A DNA stretch of 35,908 nt from a virus. Under the pieces are notes generated by a model that saw nothing but the letters and a program-made list of their open reading frames with translations, was not told the DNA's origin and made no database searches. Of this stretch, positions 1,679-32,781 are shown piece by piece; the stretch's first letter is position 1, and each line of letters opens with the position of its first letter. Made by a program: the position numbers and the translations under genes. The stretch covers positions 1-35,908 of IMG/VR virus record IMGVR_UViG_3300012920_000113; one strand, given 5' to 3'.

Positions 1679-2021
1679 AATAGTAGTATTTATTCAAGAA
1701 GTTGGTTTTCCTATAGCAGCAGCCATAGGTTTAGGTTGGTTTATTTATAAACTTGTTATAAGAATTGTTGACGGCATGGAAACAAAATTAGATATTGTTG
1801 ATGAAAAAGTAGCACAACAAATCAATGCTATAGAGGAAAGGTTAGGCACAAAACTTGATACACAACATGGTATTTTAGTAGCATTAATAGATAGAGTTAG
1901 AAGTTTAGACAATGAAATTATACGACAAGATACTTTAATTAAAACTATATTAGGAGTCCCACAACTTATAGATAGTAATAAAATAGCTAAGGCAGATAGA
2001 GATGACCAAAGAAAAGACTAA
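1671..2021 (+). CDS. membrane-anchored coiled-coil protein
   Basis: 116 residues. A single N-terminal transmembrane helix (VGFPIAAAIGLGWFIYKLVI, residues 11-30) is followed by a long coiled coil (DGMETKLDIVDEKVAQQIN to IDRVRSLDNEIIRQD). Topology suggests a holin-accessory or DUF-type phage membrane protein. It overlaps the nuclease before it by 8 bp and csgF after it by 20 bp, so it belongs to the same coupled operon. No specific function is recognised. Confidence 0.55.
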   Translation: MNEIVVFIQEVGFPIAAAIGLGWFIYKLVIRIVDGMETKLDIVDEKVAQQINAIEERLGTKLDTQHGILVALIDRVRSLDNEIIRQDTLIKTILGVPQLIDSNKIAKADRDDQRKD

Positions 2022-2511
2022 ACAAAAAATACAAGATGAAATAGTAAAAACTAAAATAGCTACGTGGTTTTTACTTATGGGATTAATTATGTTTGTTTTT
2101 ATTCTTGCACAAAATATATATGCAGATACCATAACTTTTAAATTTAAATCTCCTAGTTTTAATGGAGTAGGAACATCAAGTCACTACTTAACTATAGAAA
2201 ATCAAGAATACACTCGTAAGTTGACTATAAAAGAAGAAATAAAAGCTTTGCAAGATGAGATAGAAAGAGAAAAAGAGAATTCTACACTTGCTAGGTTTAT
2301 GCGTAATCTGGAATCAAGAGTCTATGCAGAACTATCAAGACAGTTAGTAAATAATTTATTTGGTGAAACACCGCAAAGCGAAGGTGTCATTACTTTAGAG
2401 GGCAATACTATTGAATATACTAGTGATGGCGTAACATTAACTTTAAAAATAACGGAAGCAGATGGGACAGTCACAGAAATTGTTATACCTATTGGTACCT
2501 TTACTTTCTAG
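2002..2511 (+). CDS. csgF: curli secretion accessory protein CsgF
   Basis: 169 residues. A charged 18-residue N-terminus and one hydrophobic segment (WFLLMGLIMFVFILAQNIYA) form a long signal peptide, probably cleaved before DTITF. The mature start TITFKFKSPSFNG matches the CsgF start TMTFQFRNPNFGG, the part that inserts into the CsgG pore. It is followed by a helix (RFMRNLESRVYAELSRQLV, like the CsgF NFTQAIQSQIL helix) and a beta C-terminal domain (GNTIEYTSDGVTLTLKITEADG). CsgF couples the CsgG pore to curlin nucleation at the cell surface. The last 50 bp also encode the csgG signal peptide in another frame. Assignment is by motif order and by the csgG neighbour. Confidence 0.85.
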   Translation: MTKEKTKQKIQDEIVKTKIATWFLLMGLIMFVFILAQNIYADTITFKFKSPSFNGVGTSSHYLTIENQEYTRKLTIKEEIKALQDEIEREKENSTLARFMRNLESRVYAELSRQLVNNLFGETPQSEGVITLEGNTIEYTSDGVTLTLKITEADGTVTEIVIPIGTFTF

Positions 2512-3334
2512 TTGTTCTATATTTAATCAGTTAGAGGATACTTACGAACATAGATTTCAAGAACATAACATAGTAAATATATCTGAATTACAATCAGTTG
2601 AACTAGCAAATGTTCCAAAGCCAATTATAAAACCTGTAGTAGCTGTATATCCAATGGCATTTACAGACCAAACAGGTCAAAGAAAAAGCAATAGTGAATT
2701 CGCTTTATTTAGCACTGCTATAACTCAACAACCAAATGCCTTACTCATAAGAGCATTAAAACATGCTGGAAATGGAGATTTTTTTACAGTAGTTGAAAGA
2801 GTTGGATTAGATAATTTAACAAAAGAAAGACAGCTAATAAGGTCTGCAAGAGAACAAAGTATTTCAGAAGATGAAAAGAAAAAAGCACTAAGACCTTTAT
2901 TATTTGCAGGAGTTTTAATCGAAGGTGCAGTTATATCTTATGAAACTAATCTTGCTACAGGAGGCATTGGAGCTAGGTATTTAGGTATTGGTTCTAGTGT
3001 TCAGTATAGAGAAGATAGTATAACTATAACCTTACGCATGGTATCAGTAGCTACAGGAGAAATACTGATAGAAGTAATGACTGAAAAAACCATATTTAGT
3101 TATGGTAAATCAGAAGATGTATTTCGATTTATAGAAGCGGGAACAGAACTAGTTGAAATAGAAATGGGTAACTCCAGAAATGAATCAACAACTATAGCTT
3201 TAATGAAAGCAATAGAAAGTGCTGTATTAAAAATTATAAATGTCGGTTATGACAGGAGTTTTTGGAAACATGAAAAAATTAAAATTAATGAGCCTGATTG
3301 TGATGATGACTGCATTGCAAACATACGGGGCTGA
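2462..3334 (+). CDS. csgG: curli secretion pore lipoprotein CsgG
   Basis: 290 residues. The signal ends in the lipobox LLSSC with Cys18. The body follows CsgG closely: VAVYPMAFTDQTGQRK, FSTAITQQPNALLIRALK, FFTVVERVGLDNLTKERQLI, GAVISYETNLATGGIGARYLG, QYREDSITITLRMVSVATGEI, then VFRFIEAG and IESAVLKIINVGYDRSFW. CsgG forms a nonameric outer-membrane channel that exports curli subunits (type VIII secretion). By eye the constriction Phe (E. coli mature Phe56) is kept in LFSTA, while Tyr51 and Asn55 appear to be Ser and Leu. It starts inside csgF and overlaps the next gene, so translation is coupled. Confidence 0.93.
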   Translation: MGQSQKLLYLLVPLLSSCSIFNQLEDTYEHRFQEHNIVNISELQSVELANVPKPIIKPVVAVYPMAFTDQTGQRKSNSEFALFSTAITQQPNALLIRALKHAGNGDFFTVVERVGLDNLTKERQLIRSAREQSISEDEKKKALRPLLFAGVLIEGAVISYETNLATGGIGARYLGIGSSVQYREDSITITLRMVSVATGEILIEVMTEKTIFSYGKSEDVFRFIEAGTELVEIEMGNSRNESTTIALMKAIESAVLKIINVGYDRSFWKHEKIKINEPDCDDDCIANIRG

Positions 3335-4001
3335 TAACGAAATATACGTAGACCAATCTGGTACAGGTGCAAATATAGACCTAGAACAGCTTGGTATATC
3401 TAATATTATAGGTGGTTTAAATTCAACAGCAGGCAGTTTAAATCCTTTTGATTTAGACGGTAATACTATGACACTTGATATTAATATGATTGGTGCTACT
3501 AATAAATTTTTAGGTGACATATTTGCTGATAATTTTACTGGTTTTTATGAGTTTGATGGTGGAACTAATACTTTTACTATACAAGTAGACCCAACAGATA
3601 CTTACAGTTCTGATGGTTCTAATCAATATGTAGATGTAACTGGTAGTGGAAATACATTTACTCTTAATCAAGGAACTAGTGCTATGGCAACAAACTTAGA
3701 CTTAGATTGGATTATAAATGGTTCTAATAATAGTATTACATCAAATATAAATATTGATGGTGCTACAAACTATATGGATATAGATGGTTCTGATAATGCA
3801 GTGACATATACAGGAACAGGTGTAACTGCTTCTGCAGGTGGATATTTTTATTTAGACCACACAGGCGGTTCACGAACATTTAATATTTCACAATTAAGCA
3901 CGCAAGATAATGACTGGCTCAAAATTATATCCGTTTCTGGCACTGCTGCTTCTACTGTTTGCGTCATTCAAAACGACCAAGGTACAAGCACAAGCTGTTA
4001 A
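3270..4001 (+). CDS. secreted curlin-like repeat protein, candidate CsgG substrate
   Basis: I start at ATG 3270 because MKKLKLMSLIVMMTALQTYG is a proper signal peptide; the frame also has an ATG at 3240 that would bury it. 243 residues. The mature N-terminus reads NEIYVDQSGTGANIDLEQLG then ISN, which is the curlin pattern N.I.V.Q.G..N....Q.G..N. The rest is Asn/Gly/Thr/Ser-rich with repeating TFTLNQGT, NNSITSNINID, DNAVTYTGTG and TFNISQLSTQ strands and almost no Lys or Arg. It ends in two Cys. Position directly after csgG makes it the likely exported amyloid-type or adhesive subunit. This is inference; it is longer and less regular than CsgA. Confidence 0.65.
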   Translation: MKKLKLMSLIVMMTALQTYGADNEIYVDQSGTGANIDLEQLGISNIIGGLNSTAGSLNPFDLDGNTMTLDINMIGATNKFLGDIFADNFTGFYEFDGGTNTFTIQVDPTDTYSSDGSNQYVDVTGSGNTFTLNQGTSAMATNLDLDWIINGSNNSITSNINIDGATNYMDIDGSDNAVTYTGTGVTASAGGYFYLDHTGGSRTFNISQLSTQDNDWLKIISVSGTAASTVCVIQNDQGTSTSC

Positions 4002-5028
4002 TATAGGAGATATATCTGAATTAAACGGCACAGCACAAATCATAAGAGATAAACCTTATGATGCTAATTTAAAATTTGCAGTACAAAGTAATGATGAAGC
4101 CATAACTACTGATGGTAGAATGGCTATAACATTTTTAGATGAGTCTACAGTAAGATTGACAGAGCATAGTCAATTACTAATAGATGAATATATTTATGAC
4201 CCAGACCCTTCTAAAACAAAAATGGCACTTACTTTTGGATTAGGAACTGCAAGATTTATAACAGGTAATTTAAATCGTATAGATAAACAAAACATTAGTT
4301 TAAAAACTCCAACTGCAAACATAGCTATACGTGGAACAGACTTTACAGCAACCGTAGATGAATTAGGTCGAAGCCTTATAATACTTTTACCTGATGCTTT
4401 TGGTTTATCAAGTGGTGAAATAGAAGTGGTAACTGCTATGGGAACTGTGGTATTAAATAAACCCTATGAGGCTACTACAGTAAGCGTGTTTGAATCTGCA
4501 CCTACTAAACCAGTTATTTTAGATTTAACTTTAGACGTTATAGATAATATGCTTATCGTAACTCCACCTAAAGAAGAAATAGTTTTAGAGGAAGAAACTA
4601 CAACATCAAAAACTGATAGTGTTTTAGATTTTAATGATTTAGATATAGATTATCTTGCAGAAGATTATTTAAAAGAAGATAGTCTTGAATTTACAGAACT
4701 AGATATAAATTATTTAGATGTAAATTATTTAGAAGATTTATTAAACGTTATAGATGCCTTAGCAATAGAAGAAGAAGAAGATGTGCTAGCTCAAGCTACT
4801 ACTACACAAATAACAGGCACTTTATTAGGTAAAGACCCAGATACTCAGATAACAACTTTTATTACAGGTAATATTGTTAGCTTACGTAGAGAGGTAAATG
4901 AAAGCGTTAGAATAGATGTAAATGGTAGTAATGCTTATACTGTAATATTAATACAAGATGGTGTTTCTAATGTAGTAAAAATTAATGGTGGTAGTGATTC
5001 TATAATAACTATAACTCAGAGTGATTAA
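3910..5028 (+). CDS. secreted FecR-domain protein with a curlin-like C-terminus
   Basis: 372 residues with a cleavable signal (SKLYPFLALLLLLFASF...VQAQA). Residues about 30-200 form a FecR-type domain: IGDISELNGTAQIIRDK, AITFLDESTVRLTEHSQLLI, GLGTARFITGNL and TPTANIAIRGTDFTATVDE. An acidic linker with repeated DxDYL motifs (LDIDYLAEDYL, LDINYLDVNYL) follows. The last 60 residues (RIDVNGSNAYTVILIQDG then VSNVVKINGGSDSIITITQ) again show the curlin N.....Q.G..N spacing. FecR proteins often neighbour CHASE2 cyclases. Here it may be a periplasmic sensor or a second curli component. It overlaps the previous gene by 92 bp. Confidence 0.75.
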   Translation: MTGSKLYPFLALLLLLFASFKTTKVQAQAVNIGDISELNGTAQIIRDKPYDANLKFAVQSNDEAITTDGRMAITFLDESTVRLTEHSQLLIDEYIYDPDPSKTKMALTFGLGTARFITGNLNRIDKQNISLKTPTANIAIRGTDFTATVDELGRSLIILLPDAFGLSSGEIEVVTAMGTVVLNKPYEATTVSVFESAPTKPVILDLTLDVIDNMLIVTPPKEEIVLEEETTTSKTDSVLDFNDLDIDYLAEDYLKEDSLEFTELDINYLDVNYLEDLLNVIDALAIEEEEDVLAQATTTQITGTLLGKDPDTQITTFITGNIVSLRREVNESVRIDVNGSNAYTVILIQDGVSNVVKINGGSDSIITITQSD

Positions 5029-6780
5029 ATGAATAAATTAATATTACCATTAATCATATTACTTAGTTTGCCTTTGTTATTTAAATCTACACCTACAGAA
5101 ATTATAAAGCTAAAAACGTTTGACGCTTTTATAAAAACACCAAAACCTTCAGATAATTTTGTCATACTTAATATTACTGAAGAAGATGTAGAAAGAGAGG
5201 GTGGTTATCCACTACCTAGAAAAAGACTTGCAGAGATACAAATAGATTTACTAAACAATGGTGCAATAGGTGTGGGTTGGGTTATAAGTTTTCCACAACC
5301 AGATAGAACTGGAGGTGATGAAATATTTGCCTCAGCACTAGGATATGCACCATCAGTTTTAGCAATGTTTGAAGATGGTAAAGGTAATTATCCAAAAGCT
5401 TCAGGAACAGTTGTAAAAGGTAAAGATAATGGTGGTATAATAAGTTTGGGAGTTAAGGAGAACCTACCTCTTTTATCCAATCAAGCACTACAAGGTTTAG
5501 CCATTGCTCCCACTGATATAGACCAGCTTGTAAGAAGAATACCTTTATTAGTAAAAACACCAAACAACGAGTGGATACCTAGTTTTGGTACACAAATATA
5601 TAAATCATTGCTAGATGTAAAAACTTACATTATAAAAACAAATGATAATGGTATAGAGGAAATATCAATACAGGGAATACCACCTGTTAAGACAGATAGC
5701 TTAGGGCGTAAATGGATAAGTTGGGTTAATACAGAGCAGACAACATTAGAAGAAATGTATGTAGCAGGTAAGTTTGTATTTATAGGTGTTACTGCTAACG
5801 GAGTTATGCCACAAGTAGCAACACCTGTAGGTTTGTTAGAGCCTCATAAAATACAAGCAGCACTTGCTGAATCAATATTAATACAAGATAGTCCTTATAT
5901 ACCTGATTGGAGTTTAGCTCTTGAATTATTAATTCTAGTGATAACTGTAATTTTAGTTTGGTATTCAATAAATATTTTTGGAGTATGGTTAGGATTAGTA
6001 TTCACTGGTGTATATTTTTTATCTACTGGTTTTATAGGCTATAAACTCATAACTAGTAGTTTATTAATAGATGTAACATGGACTCTAATATCACAGTTTA
6101 TTACAGGATTTATAGGATTTTATTTAAGATTTAAACAACAGTATCAATTAAGACAACAAATAAAAAAACAGTTTGAACATTATCTAGACCCAAGACAAGT
6201 AAAACAATTACAAGATAATCCAGAATTATTAAAACTTGGAGGAGAACGTAAATACTGTACTTTTTTATTTACAGATGTTAGAGGTTTTACTAATCTATCT
6301 GAAAAATTAGAGCCTGAAGAAGTAACAAAAATTATGAACAAAGCTCTTACCATACAAGCTAATGCTGTAAAAAAATATGGTGGTATGGTAGATAAGTATA
6401 TTGGCGATGCAATGATGGCAATTTTTAATGCACCAATAGATTTAGATATGCACGAAGATAGAGCAATATTAACTGCTATAGAAATAAAAAAAGAAATGCA
6501 AAAAGCAAATTTAGGTATTGCCATAGGAATAGGAATTAATAGCGGTAATGCTGTGATAGGAAATATGGGTAGCGATACTAGATTTGATTTTACTGCAATA
6601 GGAAGTGATGTAAATTTAGCAGCTAGATGTGAAAGTAGTTGTAAAGAAGTAGGAGAAGATATAATCATTGCACAGAATACTGCTACACAAACGGATATAA
6701 AATTAATGAAATTAAAACCTATAGCAATGAAAGGCATTGCTAAACCAGTTGAAATTTATACAGTACAGGAGTCAACATGA
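5029..6780 (+). CDS. CHASE2-sensor class III adenylate/guanylate cyclase
   Basis: 583 residues. N-terminal TM (about 4-20), extracytoplasmic CHASE2 domain (about 21-290, with ITEEDVEREGGYPLPRKRLA and NNGAIGVGWVISFPQPDR), three TM helices (about 293-365), and a C-terminal class III cyclase domain. Metal-binding Asp are in FTDVRGFT (about 416) and KYIGDAMMAIF (about 460). GIGINSGNAVIGNMGS and DFTAIGSDVNLAARCE supply nucleotide-binding and transition-state residues. The Asp of DFTAIG favours ATP. It should make cyclic nucleotide in response to a periplasmic cue. It starts immediately after the FecR stop and overlaps the holin by 4 bp (ATGA). A copy of the dispersed palindrome lies in the codons of its second TM. 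Confidence 0.9.
   Translation: MNKLILPLIILLSLPLLFKSTPTEIIKLKTFDAFIKTPKPSDNFVILNITEEDVEREGGYPLPRKRLAEIQIDLLNNGAIGVGWVISFPQPDRTGGDEIFASALGYAPSVLAMFEDGKGNYPKASGTVVKGKDNGGIISLGVKENLPLLSNQALQGLAIAPTDIDQLVRRIPLLVKTPNNEWIPSFGTQIYKSLLDVKTYIIKTNDNGIEEISIQGIPPVKTDSLGRKWISWVNTEQTTLEEMYVAGKFVFIGVTANGVMPQVATPVGLLEPHKIQAALAESILIQDSPYIPDWSLALELLILVITVILVWYSINIFGVWLGLVFTGVYFLSTGFIGYKLITSSLLIDVTWTLISQFITGFIGFYLRFKQQYQLRQQIKKQFEHYLDPRQVKQLQDNPELLKLGGERKYCTFLFTDVRGFTNLSEKLEPEEVTKIMNKALTIQANAVKKYGGMVDKYIGDAMMAIFNAPIDLDMHEDRAILTAIEIKKEMQKANLGIAIGIGINSGNAVIGNMGSDTRFDFTAIGSDVNLAARCESSCKEVGEDIIIAQNTATQTDIKLMKLKPIAMKGIAKPVEIYTVQEST
5993..6023. repeat. dispersed palindrome copy in the cyclase gene
   Basis: GATTAGTATTCACTGGTG then TATATTTTTTATC. 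The first 18 bases match the reverse complement of the 30471-30503 copy with one mismatch. In frame it encodes VFTGVYF of a TM helix. Confidence 0.55.
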
Positions 6781-7742: not shown

Positions 7743-9611
7743 ATGCCATTTGCTAAATTTGTATTTAAACCAGGCATAAATAAAGAAGGCACTAACTATT
7801 CAAATGAGAATGGTTGGTTTGATGCAGATAAAATAAGATTTAGAAAGGGCAGACCAGAAAAAATAGGTGGTTGGCAAAAACATTCATCTAGTTCTTTTTT
7901 AGGAACTTGTAGAAAAATACACGTTTACAGTGATATAGAATCTACTAAATACAAAATACTAGGAACACATAAAAAGTTGTATGGAGTAGAAGGAACTACG
8001 TTTAATGATATAACACCAATTAGAGAAACTACTTCTGCAGGTGATGTAACTTTTGCAGCTACAAATGGTAGCTCTACGATAACAGCTACAGATACTTCTC
8101 ATGGTGCAGTAATAGGAGATTTTGTTACATTTAGTGATGCGTCTAGTTTAGGTGGTAACATTACAGCAGCAGTATTAAATCAAGAATACGAAATAGCATC
8201 AGTTCCTAATGATAATAGTTTTACTTTTACTGCTAAAGACACTAGTGGGACTGAAGTAACAGCAAATAGCAGTGATAGTGGAAATGGTGGCTCATCAGTT
8301 GTAGGGACATATCAAATAAATGTTGGACTAGATACTTATGTTTCTTCTACAGGTTGGAGTGTAGGTTCTTGGGGTGCTGGAGGATTTGGTTCTACAACAC
8401 CTTTATCTTTAACTAATCAATTAAGATTATGGACAATAGATAATTTTGGAGATGATACTATAGCAGCACCTAGAGGTGGACCTATATACTATTGGGATGA
8501 ATCTGGTGGTTTATCTACTAGAGCAGTATTAGCAAGTAGTAGAGCAGGAGCAAGTAACACACCAGTTGCTGTATTACAATTATTAATGTCAGATGTAGAT
8601 AGACACGTAATAGCTTTAGGTTCTAACCCAATAGGTTCTAGCACTATAGACCCACTATTAGTAAGATTTTCTGATAAAGAAAATGCAGTAGATTGGACAC
8701 CAACTGCGACAAATTCAGCAGGTGGTGTCAGGCTTTCTACAGGTAGCACAATTATAGGTGGTTTACAAACAAGACAAGAAATACTTATTTGGACAGATGT
8801 GGGTATAGTTTCCATGCGTTTTGTTGGTGCTCCATTTGTGTTTAGTTTTAATGAAGTAGCAACTGGTATGTCACTTATATCTCCTAACGGAGCAGCTACT
8901 GCAGGTGGTACAGTTTACTTTATGGACGATGGTGCTTTTTATCAGTACTCAGGTTCTGTGCAAAGATTGCCTTGCACTGTGTTAGACCACGTATTTAATG
9001 ATTTTAATAAAAGTCAAGCATACAAAATTTTTGCAGCAGCTAATCCTAAATACAATGAAGTAATGTGGTTTTATCCTAGTGAAAATAGTCAAGAAATAAA
9101 TAGATATGTAATCTATAATTATTTAGAACAAAGTTGGAGTATAGGAACTACTAGTGATAACTTTGTTAGAACAGCATGGAATCCTGCATACACATTAGAT
9201 TATCCATTGGCTGCAAGTAAAGATGATGACTCTGGCTCCAATTATTTGTATGACCAAGAGTTTGGATATTTAGCAGACGGTAATGGATTTACTGCTTTTA
9301 TAGAATCTTCTGACTTTGATTTAGACCCAGATGGAGAAAACTTTATGTTTATATCCAAGTTAATACCAGACATACAATTTAGAAAATCTACTGATACAGG
9401 CGATACTGTCAATGTAGTGATAAAAGGTAGAGAATATCCGCTTCAAGATTTATCCACATTATCTACTGTAGCTGTAACACCTAATTCTACTTTTACTAAT
9501 ACTAGAAGTAGAAGTAGACAAAGTGCTATTAGAGTAGAAAACTCTACAGGAGATTTTGGTTGGAGATTAGGTGATTTAAGATTAGAACTTAGAAGAGACG
9601 GTAAAAGATAA
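7743..9611 (+). CDS. tail hub / DNA-stabilisation-type virion protein
   Basis: 622 residues, beta-rich. The N-terminal FVFKPGINKEGTNYSNENGW followed by DADKIRFRKGRPEKIGGWQK is the standard start of a protein found in many marine podoviruses and annotated as a P22 gp10-like stabilisation or tail protein. Later segments (LWTDVG-like ILIWTDVGIVSMRF, GGTVYFMDDGAFYQYSG, VMWFYPSENSQEINRYVIYN) look like beta-propeller blades. Role: probably part of the tail hub closing the head after packaging. Family role is from memory of related annotations. Confidence 0.75.
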   Translation: MPFAKFVFKPGINKEGTNYSNENGWFDADKIRFRKGRPEKIGGWQKHSSSSFLGTCRKIHVYSDIESTKYKILGTHKKLYGVEGTTFNDITPIRETTSAGDVTFAATNGSSTITATDTSHGAVIGDFVTFSDASSLGGNITAAVLNQEYEIASVPNDNSFTFTAKDTSGTEVTANSSDSGNGGSSVVGTYQINVGLDTYVSSTGWSVGSWGAGGFGSTTPLSLTNQLRLWTIDNFGDDTIAAPRGGPIYYWDESGGLSTRAVLASSRAGASNTPVAVLQLLMSDVDRHVIALGSNPIGSSTIDPLLVRFSDKENAVDWTPTATNSAGGVRLSTGSTIIGGLQTRQEILIWTDVGIVSMRFVGAPFVFSFNEVATGMSLISPNGAATAGGTVYFMDDGAFYQYSGSVQRLPCTVLDHVFNDFNKSQAYKIFAAANPKYNEVMWFYPSENSQEINRYVIYNYLEQSWSIGTTSDNFVRTAWNPAYTLDYPLAASKDDDSGSNYLYDQEFGYLADGNGFTAFIESSDFDLDPDGENFMFISKLIPDIQFRKSTDTGDTVNVVIKGREYPLQDLSTLSTVAVTPNSTFTNTRSRSRQSAIRVENSTGDFGWRLGDLRLELRRDGKR

Positions 9612-27055: not shown

Positions 27056-27086
27056 AAATACTCCAATATTTAATTATGATTTAATT

Positions 27087-27115
27087 ATGTTAATTTAATG
27101 TATTGATAATGTCAA
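27087..27115 (-). promoter_or_regulatory. sigma70-type promoter of the recombination operon
   Basis: On the minus strand: -35 TTGACA (27110-27115), 17-bp spacer, -10 TAACAT (27087-27092). Expected start near 27080, giving a leader of about 25 nt with GGAG before ATG 27055. The -35 box is perfect. Confidence 0.75.
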
Positions 27116-27131
27116 TAATATGTTTTAATAT
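27103..27131 (+). promoter_or_regulatory. sigma70-type promoter, divergent, probably leaderless transcript
   Basis: -35 TTGATA (27103-27108), 17-bp spacer, -10 TAATAT (27126-27131). The next ATG begins at 27138, six bases after the -10, so transcription should start at or next to the start codon. The two -35 boxes of the divergent pair interlock in the inverted repeat TTGATAATGTCAA. Confidence 0.75.
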
Positions 27132-27137
27132 AATTTA

Positions 27138-30362: not shown

Positions 30363-30390
30363 AAAATATTTTCACTGGTGAATATAATTT
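30363..30390. repeat. dispersed palindrome copy, array member 1
   Basis: AAAATATTTTCACTGGTGAA then TATAATTT. Centre 113 bp from member 2. Confidence 0.75.
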
Positions 30391-30912: not shown

Positions 30913-31042
30913 TTTTCTTTTTCCTTTTCTTTGGTTTATCTAAATCAAGTGACTCAATAATCAAGTGACTTTTCATCCACTCGTTACTAACTCCTTGCTC
31001 GTTAAGTGCTTTCTTAAAAGCTTGTTCTATTTTTTTTGACAT
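30854..31042 (-). CDS. 62-residue lysine-rich peptide
   Basis: Starts at ATG 31042 with an ideal AAGGAG seven bases upstream, inside the last codons of the previous gene. Product: MSKKIEQAFKKALNEQGVSN then EWMKSHLIIESLDLDKPKKR followed by a run of Lys. The basic tail suggests nucleic-acid or host-protein binding. Overlap with the 30912 gene is long (59 bp), so its 3' end may be shared coding or one of the two may be spurious. The strong ribosome binding site favours this one. Confidence 0.5.
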
Positions 31043-31386
31043 AATTTCTCCTTTTGTTTTGGATATAAATAATCAGCATGATATTCTAAAGTGTCCCAAG
31101 AAATACCTAATTCTGCATCATGTTTTCTGTCTGCAAAATTTAATACTTCCAAACATTCATCATCATTTAAATCGGGTCTTATGTTTTTTACATCTTCTAT
31201 TTCCCAAATAATTGCTACAGAATTGCTATCATCATAACCATAACCATAGTTCTTTTTTTCTTTTACTATATTCCAAGCATTGTTTAATTCTTTTAGTGCT
31301 TTTTTATCAGAAGATATACCCTCTTCTGCATAAAACATTAAAGCATTTTCAACAATTTCAATAGCCTCTTTTACTTCTTTTGCCAT
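31027..31386 (-). CDS. 119-residue acidic early protein, unrecognised
   Basis: Starts at ATG 31386 behind GGGAG. Contents: VKEAIEIVENALMFYAEEGI, ALKELNNAWNIVKEKKNYGY and LNDDECLEVLNFADRKHDAE. All-helical and acidic, without membrane segments. No family recognised. It is coupled to the genes before (stop at 31389) and after (overlap 16 bp). Confidence 0.55.
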   Translation of the reverse strand: MAKEVKEAIEIVENALMFYAEEGISSDKKALKELNNAWNIVKEKKNYGYGYDDSNSVAIIWEIEDVKNIRPDLNDDECLEVLNFADRKHDAELGISWDTLEYHADYLYPKQKEKLCQKK

Positions 31387-31894: not shown

Positions 31895-31924
31895 TTATTG
31901 CTCCATAAAATTAATAAAGTAAAA

Positions 31925-31952
31925 GTATTACATAAAACATTACACAATGCAA
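31925..31952 (-). promoter_or_regulatory. promoter of the 31894-30706 small-gene operon
   Basis: Minus strand: -35 TTGCAT (31947-31952), 16-bp spacer, -10 TAATAC (31925-31930). It points away from the plus-strand RNA promoter at 31977. Confidence 0.55.
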
Positions 31953-31976
31953 ACATAAATTAATCATAAAAAACTA

Positions 31977-32004
31977 TTGCATTTATATTTCATAGTGCTA
32001 TCAT
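31977..32004 (+). promoter_or_regulatory. promoter P1 of candidate structured RNA 1
   Basis: -35 TTGCAT (31977-31982), 16-bp spacer, extended -10 TGC-TATCAT (31996-32004). The sequence GTGCTATCAT recurs exactly at P2 (32330-32339). Expected start about 32011. Confidence 0.65.
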
Positions 32005-32010
32005 TGTATT

Positions 32011-32309
32011 TGTAAGGTTAGCGGAAAAGTGGATAGCTATTAAAGTATAAATCCAGTTTTACCACCTAGCAAAGTATAGGGATAACTTGGAATGTATCAC
32101 GCCAAGGGTTCGTTGATGATACACGCTTTGCATATAGGAAAAGAGTAAAGGGGTTGCAAGACCTAGGTAGTATGAACAACGCCTTACTAGACTGATTTTT
32201 TCTCATGTGCGAGGGTGTTTCAATGTCGATAAATAACAAAACACAGCATTGCGGGTCTAGTGTTTTGCTAGTTTTACAATTCCCAAATCAAAAAAAACTA
32301 GCACTTTTT
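32011..32309 (+). ncRNA. candidate structured RNA 1 with an H-type pseudoknot
   Basis: About 300 nt between promoter P1 and a terminator, with no credible ORF. Helices seen: GGAAAA-g-TGGAT (32023-32034) with ATCCA-g-TTTT-a-CC (32051-32063); GCAAAG (32069-32074) with CTTTGC (32126-32131), enclosing a pseudoknot made of CTTGG/CCAAG (32086-32090/32102-32106) and GTATCA/TGATAC (32094-32099/32117-32122); TAGTA/TACTA at 32168-32172/32185-32189. It does not show RNase P, tmRNA or 6S hallmarks. No family recognised. Confidence 0.55.
32266..32309 (+). terminator. terminator of structured RNA 1
   Basis: TGCTAGTTTT (32266-32275) pairs perfectly with AAAACTAGCA (32294-32303), followed by CTTTTT. Confidence 0.7.
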
Positions 32310-32329
32310 GAATAAAATAAAAAATTTAT

Positions 32330-32339
32330 GTGCTATCAT
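32330..32339 (+). promoter_or_regulatory. promoter P2 of candidate structured RNA 2
   Basis: GTGCTATCAT, an extended -10 identical to that of P1. A TTGAAT lies 20 bp upstream (32308-32313), a long spacer, so the extended -10 probably carries recognition. Confidence 0.55.
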
Positions 32340-32345
32340 AATGCT

Positions 32346-32402
32346 ATGACAAAAAAGATACATATTAGAGGATATATAACTCCTATTTCTCGTGGTCTGT
32401 AA
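32346..32402 (+). CDS. 18-codon leader peptide, leaderless start
   Basis: ATG 32346 is six bases after the P2 -10 box, exactly the spacing seen at 27138 and 30248. It encodes MTKKIHIRGYITPISRGL and stops at TAA 32400-32402. The helix ACATATT/AATATGT (32360-32366/32405-32411) uses its codons, so a ribosome translating it would open that helix. It could regulate folding of the downstream RNA. It is too short to be sure it is translated. Confidence 0.35.
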   Translation: MTKKIHIRGYITPISRGL

Positions 32403-32676
32403 ACCAATATGTGTTGGGTTGCGAAACTTTATTGATACTGTAATTGTGAAGAGAAAAGGTTATTGTTACAGCGATAGCACTCGTTCTATAAAATGGTTCA
32501 ATATTAACTGCGGTTGTAAACTGGTACATTTACAATAACCAAAGAGGCTGACTTAATTTGTCATAGTTTTTTGATTAGACTATAGAGGCAGTGTAATCCT
32601 CGCATCCTTTAGGATGTTACTTACACCAATAAAAACAACTATTAATTAGTTGTGTTCATAGCCACACTGCCTCTAT
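32346..32676 (+). ncRNA. candidate structured RNA 2 with competing helices
   Basis: Downstream of P2. Helices: ACATATT/AATATGT enclosing AGGA/TCCT and GGT/ACC; GGTTATTGT (32457-32465) with ACAATAACC (32532-32540), competing with TTGTAAA/TTTACAA (32513-32519/32529-32535). The 3' domain is closed by a 13-bp perfect stem, ATAGAGGCAGTGT (32582-32594) with ACACTGCCTCTAT (32664-32676). It holds two inner hairpins, CATCC/GGATG and ACAACTA/TAGTTGT. GTGTAA can instead pair with TTACAC (32621-32626). No U-run ends it. Function unknown. Confidence 0.5.
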
Positions 32677-32680
32677 TCTT

Positions 32681-32743
32681 AGACTATCTATACCAACTCA
32701 AAGACTATCTATTACAATCAATAGACTATCTATAAAAACCAAA
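32681..32743. repeat. three 21-bp tandem iterons, with a fourth copy at 32820-32840
   Basis: AGACTATCTA starts at 32681, 32702 and 32723, exactly 21 bp apart (two helical turns). The consensus is AGACTATCTAT followed by an A/C-rich 10 bp. A fourth copy starts at 32820, and AGACTAT also occurs at 32577. The flanks are A-rich. The layout suits a replication origin or a cooperatively bound regulator site. Confidence 0.65.
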
Positions 32744-32781
32744 AAAAAATCAAACACACCAATCGTGTCTCCTGACGGCAT

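Follow-up and report, generated by a model that had tools for sequence, protein, structure and literature searches.

Does a stretch of some 300 nucleotides without an open reading frame, located at positions 32011 to 32309 of a viral genome record, encode one structured RNA, and if so, what might such an RNA do? The record is a 35,908-base IMG/VR virus sequence (the window, by which we mean this entire stretch of DNA), and the feature was originally predicted to be a single promoter-to-terminator RNA with a nested H-type pseudoknot. Our analysis indicates that it consists of several small pseudoknot modules strung together as separate units: module A, which holds module B and a segment M, followed by modules C and D.

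Architecture of the window array

All elements of the array lie on the plus strand. Module A (32012-32187) is closed by helix P1 (32012-32017/32182-32187) and carries the pseudoknot P2 (32019-32022/32036-32039), which joins the 5′ part to the P3 loop, helix P3 (32030-32034/32051-32055) and helix P4 (from 32060-32063/32166-32169), the last of which contains B and M. Module B (32069-32131) is the nested H-type pseudoknot, and its predicted helices proved correct to the base. Stem 1 joins CTTGG (32086-32090) to CCAAG (32102-32106), stem 2 joins GTATCA (32094-32099) to TGATAC (32117-32122), and the 6-bp enclosing helix joins GCAAAG (32069-32074) to CTTTGC (32126-32131). Segment M (32139-32167; AAAAGAG..CCTAGG), which adjoins B within P4 and is defined by sequence alone, is present only in the window and locus L040 among the loci compared for module make-up. 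Module C (32188-32252) comprises a pseudoknot (32190-32192/32225-32227), a helix (32216-32220/32239-32243) and a small hairpin (32202-32204/32211-32213). Module D (32253-32303) is a 10-bp hairpin (32266-32275/32294-32303) with an 18-nt loop and is followed by CTTTTT; pairing is possible between its loop nucleotides CCC (32282-32284) and the GGG (32253-32255) of the 5′ flank.

The signals proposed to delimit the RNA fared unevenly. Promoter-like hexamers, TTGCAT-16 nt-TATCAT, can be read from the plus strand at 31977-32004, with TG preceding the second hexamer to give the extended -10 element TGCTATCAT, but this candidate is weak and is absent from a consensus promoter scan of the window. The proposed ‘clean terminator’ is doubtful, given that module D has an 18-nt loop, goes unlisted by a terminator scan of the window, and is followed by a T-tract in only 9 of the 36 matches collected from relatives (two of the 36 being antisense artefacts of a palindrome). 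No open reading frame of 60 or more amino acids is present on the plus strand at the feature, as had been claimed. The notion of a structured non-coding phage RNA is supported; that of a single promoter-to-terminator unit is not, as its terminator is itself a module and nearly all of its relatives lie in mRNA leaders or between cistrons. The window copy nevertheless looks like a free-standing transcript.

A second structured RNA is predicted immediately downstream, on the same strand (32330-32690). The -10-like motif GTGCTATCAT of the promoter-like stretch occurs again at 32330, where this RNA starts, and a 13-bp hairpin (32582-32594/32664-32676) lies near its end. The region folds with a z-score of -3.25, and a 97-nt homologue of about 84% identity, with two compensatory pairs, is found in L097 and L050. 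Just past it are 21-nt direct repeats with AGACTATCTA (window 32680-32742 and 32820), which are possibly iterons.

From the window sequence alone, the case for structure in the array is weak. The folding energy of the region yields a z-score of -1.78, with 11 of 200 shuffled sequences folding equally well, and 18 of 200 dinucleotide shuffles contain a nested pseudoknot whose stems measure 5, 6 and 6 bp. It is homology that raises the feature above chance, through the recurrence of B, the covariation of A, C and E, and the visible changes in D.

Compensatory changes in module stems

Homologues were collected in several ways. The window gene at 31027-31386, used as a query, retrieved loci L015 and L016, whose RNA is 82-85% identical to that of the window, and an exact 17-base core of module C was found in 27 IMG/VR stretches, mostly with other neighbours. 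Pattern searches returned 105 stretches for module A (matches being listed for 80 of them), 13 for B, six of which are real, and 25 for a further module, E, from which 15 distinct real sequences were retained. For module C, 21 of 37 matches were aligned together with two C3 forms added by hand, giving 23 sequences; 14 near-duplicates and two coding matches were left out.

Covariation was counted in sequences rather than events, and the related sequences are not independent. With that reading, P2 and P3 of module A are paired in 99.8% of cells across 71 distinct sequences, with 85 double-change cells compared to 29.2 in shuffles (equalled in 0 of 500) and far above any version with slid partners. 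Because four of these five-pair P3 helices' pairs were set in advance by the search pattern, the evidence for A rests on P2 and the outer P3 pair. P2 is represented by UAGC/GCUA, GUGC/GCAC, AUGC/GCAU, UUGC/GCAA, UAUC/GAUA and GUCC/GGAC, and by GCUC/GAGC in a minimal form of the module. The remaining helices of A, for which 76/78 rows were used in the P1/P4 counts, are likewise paired beyond expectation: the first five pairs of P1 are formed in 95.1% of cases among 49 distinct flank pairs (77.8% when shuffled; 0 of 2000), and the closing flanks of P4 in 87.8% among 23 distinct versions (59.8% when shuffled; 0 of 2000). What P4 encloses is far from constant, with 61 distinct contents that consist of nothing, of short hairpins, or of the recurrent units F, J, K and B. 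The loop of P3 holds invariant letters, although part of this invariance reflects selection by the search, because the fetching pattern fixes most of those letters.

Similar results were obtained for modules E and C. The 15 sequences of E are 97.1% paired and include 27 double-change cells, compared to 10.4 in shuffles, and the knot formed between the loop and the 3′ flank appears as GAUACU/AGUAUC, GUUGUU/AACAAC and CUACU/AGUAG. The 23 sequences of C are paired in 94.5% of cells, with 27 double-change cells compared to 8.1 (0 of 500). The pairing of flank to loop in module D varies among relatives as CACAG/CTGTG, AGACAG/CTGTCT, GAGGC/GTCTC and AGG/CCT, which we give as a listing without a shuffle test. 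Module B was found in six other contigs and in four flank contexts; among five aligned sequences, stem 1 is invariant and stem 2 carries one compensatory change, from C-G to U-A.

The original prediction offered covariation among homologues as its check, and compensatory changes are indeed seen. These comparisons show the modules to be RNA pseudoknots, in which compensatory change is strong for A, C and E, visible for D and limited to one change for B. An ordinary intrinsic terminator accompanied by chance folds would be compatible with the unremarkable folding energy and with the frequency of nested pseudoknots in shuffled sequence. We consider this explanation extremely improbable, since it is contradicted by covariation in A, C and E that exceeds both 500 shuffles and slid partners.

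Re-ordering, nesting and relocation of modules

Module order and nesting vary between the contigs of related uncultured phages, and modules are also found singly. In the window, L016 and L040, module B is nested within A; in L015 it lies 5′ of A and outside it; and in L141, L143 and L145 it occurs by itself, enclosed by another closing helix. Thus B is not the core of a single RNA but one among several interchangeable modules. Units F and J are also seen in other closing helices, and L119 carries, in series, A, C3 and another A-like unit. Loci L015 and L016 are 98.8% identical over 2159 bp adjoining the array and 95.5% identical over the next 2064 bp, covering most of the array, and yet their module order differs. 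In L022, at about 9245-9280, the reverse complement of B's core (GTTAGCCAAGTTATCCCTAGCC) is found within P1 of A, perhaps as a scar of inversion or template switching.

Arrays also appear to change location. In the 11 relatives listed, the leader of the exonuclease operon holds an array, placed after a promoter that they share. At the orthologous window site (27056-27137, minus strand), a similar promoter is present and the opposed genes are about 80 bp apart, with no array between them; an array of much the same composition (A with B and M, followed by C and D), matched most closely in make-up by L040, sits at 32011. We infer that the window array moved to a site that lacks a downstream gene on the same strand. 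Overall, these comparisons of sequence reveal modules that recur in many gene contexts and are exchanged, re-ordered and nested across marine phage genomes and sites.

Gene context of the arrays

Among 112 distinct arrays (a count that leaves out L161 and L167-L169), 108 share the strand of the downstream gene, two (L160 and the window) are opposite to it, and for two no downstream gene was called. The corresponding numbers for the upstream gene are 86, 15 and 11. Nearly all arrays are located on the coding strand, either in a leader or between two genes of the same transcript. The genes that flank arrays are many, with primase-helicase the commonest downstream.

When 827 gaps from 153 loci were compared all against all, 394 proved to have a segment in common with a gap between other gene families, and the largest cluster comprises 298 segments in 49 context pairs; these figures are raw, in that some coding sequence missed by the ORF caller remains in the gaps and 1103 of the 4139 hits are antiparallel. 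Across seven loci, 29 of 69 intergenic gaps fold with z-scores below -2. Further strongly structured gaps (z about -4 to -5), outside the assigned modules, occur in module-bearing phages at L088 2460-2895, L050 3316-3630 and L103 12815-12991.

One explanation for this distribution is that the modules are mobile hairpin elements, which would selfishly copy themselves into the DNA between genes and into other modules' loops, and whose folding would serve mainly to make them tolerated. Nesting with changed closing helices is in keeping with such behaviour, as are the filled and empty sites represented by P4 and by the orthologous site in the window, which lacks the array present elsewhere, and the 49 gene-context combinations of the largest cluster. 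However, the many copies per genome expected of such elements are not seen. Module A (with at most two mismatches) is present in 12 of 18 long records and in two copies in one of these, and C is present once in each of 10 of the 18, where the records are possibly fragments; the modules do not look like a multicopy repeat and are nearly always single-copy. The orientation of arrays also tracks that of the downstream gene. On balance, we regard mobile elements as an unlikely source of the pattern.

The junction upstream of the primase gene permits a comparison that is independent of module content, because relatives were fetched by the primase protein alone. Among the best 80 of 495 such relatives, five are cut, and RNA structure is present at the junction in all 75 that can be read. 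This structure is a plain hairpin (GGCTAGG..CCTAGCC) in 60 cases, a minimal A without P4 in 14, and a full A in one, where the hairpin and minimal-A groups include identical copies and the single full A belongs to the query's own contig (L174 is the contig of L088). When phages are instead fetched by module A, one such junction exhibits six or more kinds of P4 content, enclosed by flanks that are nearly identical. The structure at one gene junction is thus interchangeable in kind.

Alternatively, each module might be a cis-regulatory switch or leader that responds to a ligand or protein and thereby controls the gene that follows. The leader or intercistronic position on the coding strand and the conserved loop letters of A (partly fixed by the search pattern) would suit such elements, and pseudoknotted leaders near start codons, for example a methionine-associated motif, are described for SAR11 (PMC2704228). 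But a given module precedes many unrelated genes, and a given gene is preceded by unrelated modules, which makes dedicated switches very unlikely.

Comparison with known RNAs and systems

The claim that the feature belongs to no known family was borne out. Rfam 15, which includes GOLLD, ROOL, ribozymes and riboswitches, gave no gathering-level match for the window or for 14 module-rich loci, and the specific comparison with GOLLD that had been suggested was negative. Three module stretches had no Rfam match at E≤1, and region 31900-32740 had only weak, chance-level and unrelated matches at E≤10. Likenesses to ribosomal RNA, group I introns, small ribozymes and SAM-type riboswitches were dropped for want of an Rfam match. 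A literature search, with most subscription journals outside its reach, found nothing on such shuffled RNA in phages.

Searches in other genomes gave equally little. A pattern search across the genomes of 84,980 species had three matches, none with module flanks, and these were attributed to chance as their surroundings look protein-coding. BLAST matches of about 50 nt between the region and named phages, nearly all staphylococcal, fell at query positions 68-119 (window 31967-32018) and were ascribed to a shared promoter-like, AT-rich composition. Distant BLAST searches in named phages found nothing for the module stretches of L097 or L026, and a match to minimal A was taken as chance.

Structures between genes of one transcript are familiar from RNase III sites of phage T7, from phage intercistronic hairpins and from REP/BIME elements. 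The arrays resemble these in that one fold can replace another, but differ in consisting of dedicated, recurrent pseudoknot families that nest and are exchanged as cassettes. Double-hairpin elements, which also occur in Allomyces, offer a second parallel. In mitochondrial genomes, double-hairpin or repetitive hairpin-forming elements are small, intergenic, variable between close relatives and thought to be mobile (PMC2800124), and it is as small hairpin-forming intergenic units with such variability that the phage modules resemble them. Relative to that description, the phage modules are distinguished by their compact pseudoknots, their compensatory changes, their adherence to the strand of the downstream gene and their occurrence mostly in one copy per genome.

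Structured RNAs with pseudoknots and obscure function are known from phages as GOLLD and ROOL, which are longer single architectures often encoded near tRNA genes (PMC12286853). The arrays share with them phage origin and pseudoknots but have no Rfam match. The marine-metagenome RNAs manA, wcaG, PhotoRC-II and Ocean-V, several of which are found in phages, each have an Rfam accession, and none of these accession-bearing families matches the feature; Ocean-VI has no accession in the table of that source (PMC2864571).

A functional precedent is provided by phage PhiTE, whose pseudo-ToxI RNA acts against the toxin ToxN and whose pseudoknot sequence turns over by expansion and recombination (PMC3475682). 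By analogy, the modules might be anti-defence decoys, i.e. pseudoknots that are produced in infected cells and capture an RNA-cutting toxin or nuclease of the host, with shuffling as diversification in an arms race. Both systems feature a phage-borne RNA pseudoknot with turnover, and small H-type pseudoknots in a phage, turnover between the close relatives L015 and L016, and the apparently free-standing unit in the window would all suit this role. In contrast to PhiTE, we found no tandem 36-nt repeats, no toxin gene among the proteins scanned and no Rfam match. Specifically, 31900-32760 lacks ToxI-like tandem pseudoknot repeats and has only the 21-nt repeat at 32680-32742, beyond the RNA, and a low-complexity row. 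PADLOC had no match among 10 neighbouring proteins from the window and relatives, and non-exhaustive Pfam and PHROGs scans name no endoribonuclease toxin. Furthermore, at the primase junction a plain hairpin is enough. We therefore consider decoys improbable.

A possible role in phage transcripts

The explanation that we favour, to which we assign slightly less than even credence, is that the modules are exchangeable structural elements of phage transcripts, probably barriers to decay or processing, that are shuffled by phage recombination. Acting in cis within phage transcripts, modules would serve as barriers or processing sites and so determine the points at which mRNA decay or cleavage comes to a halt, and one good fold could replace another at a given site. 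Annealing recombination, by a Sak-like protein together with an exonuclease, might be the agent of shuffling, and the window encodes both a Sak-like annealing protein and an exonuclease. The window array, having moved, appears to be transcribed alone. Identical copies in the presence of an annealing recombinase could also lead to deletion of the intervening DNA; if this thought is correct, each site would need a different fold. The modularity and the pseudoknots are shown; action in cis on the processing or decay of transcripts, and the part that recombination plays in shuffling, are inferred.

Some observations are not easily reconciled with barriers. The invariant letters in the P3 loop of A, partly a product of the search pattern, are more than a mere barrier requires, and a cis role on the flanking gene misfits the window copy, because that copy has no downstream gene on the same strand. 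We also count against this explanation that the cultured pelagiphages HTVC115P, HTVC027P, HTVC103P and EXVC032P Baldr, in the portions of their records searched, have no convincing module match.

A broader and more tentative idea, which we find rather doubtful, is that the modules represent a new class of horizontally exchanged RNA domains: autonomous pseudoknots that would travel as cassettes from phage to phage, insert into each other's loops and build combinatorial RNAs under a diversifying pressure. The diversifying pressure in such a class could be either a need for site-specific sequence in a recombination-prone genome or service as decoys against host RNA-cutting defences.

To our knowledge, phage mosaicism has been described mainly for genes and protein domains. 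The arrays present the same mosaicism at the level of RNA domains, with clear compensatory change, and in effect supply, at fixed gene junctions, a natural collection of RNA folds that can stand in for one another. The role of intergenic structure is thereby made testable, as a plain hairpin, a minimal knot and a long array can be compared at one site.

Candidate host and additional observations

The nearest named protein relatives of these phages include SAR11 phages. The DNA polymerase of L131, which bears modules, is 49-50% identical to those of Pelagibacter phages HTVC103P, HTVC104P and HTVC115P, and a structural protein of the window is 30-39% identical to proteins of phage DSL-LC04, roseophages and HTVC027P/HTVC023P. 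A SAR11-like host is plausible. In the EXVC032P Baldr record (L173), an unannotated gap upstream of the exonuclease gene, at about 7774-8369, looks like a coding gene.

Two other features of the window were noted. The sequence AAAATATTTTCACTNGTGAWTA is repeated at 30363, 30476, 30585, 34217 and 23577 (five matches with at most three mismatches, where 0.04 are expected), and it is possible that these are operator or origin repeats. Finally, region 2002-6780 carries genes for CsgF, CsgG, FecR and a CHASE2-cyclase, and the FecR and CHASE2-cyclase genes are also present in L131.
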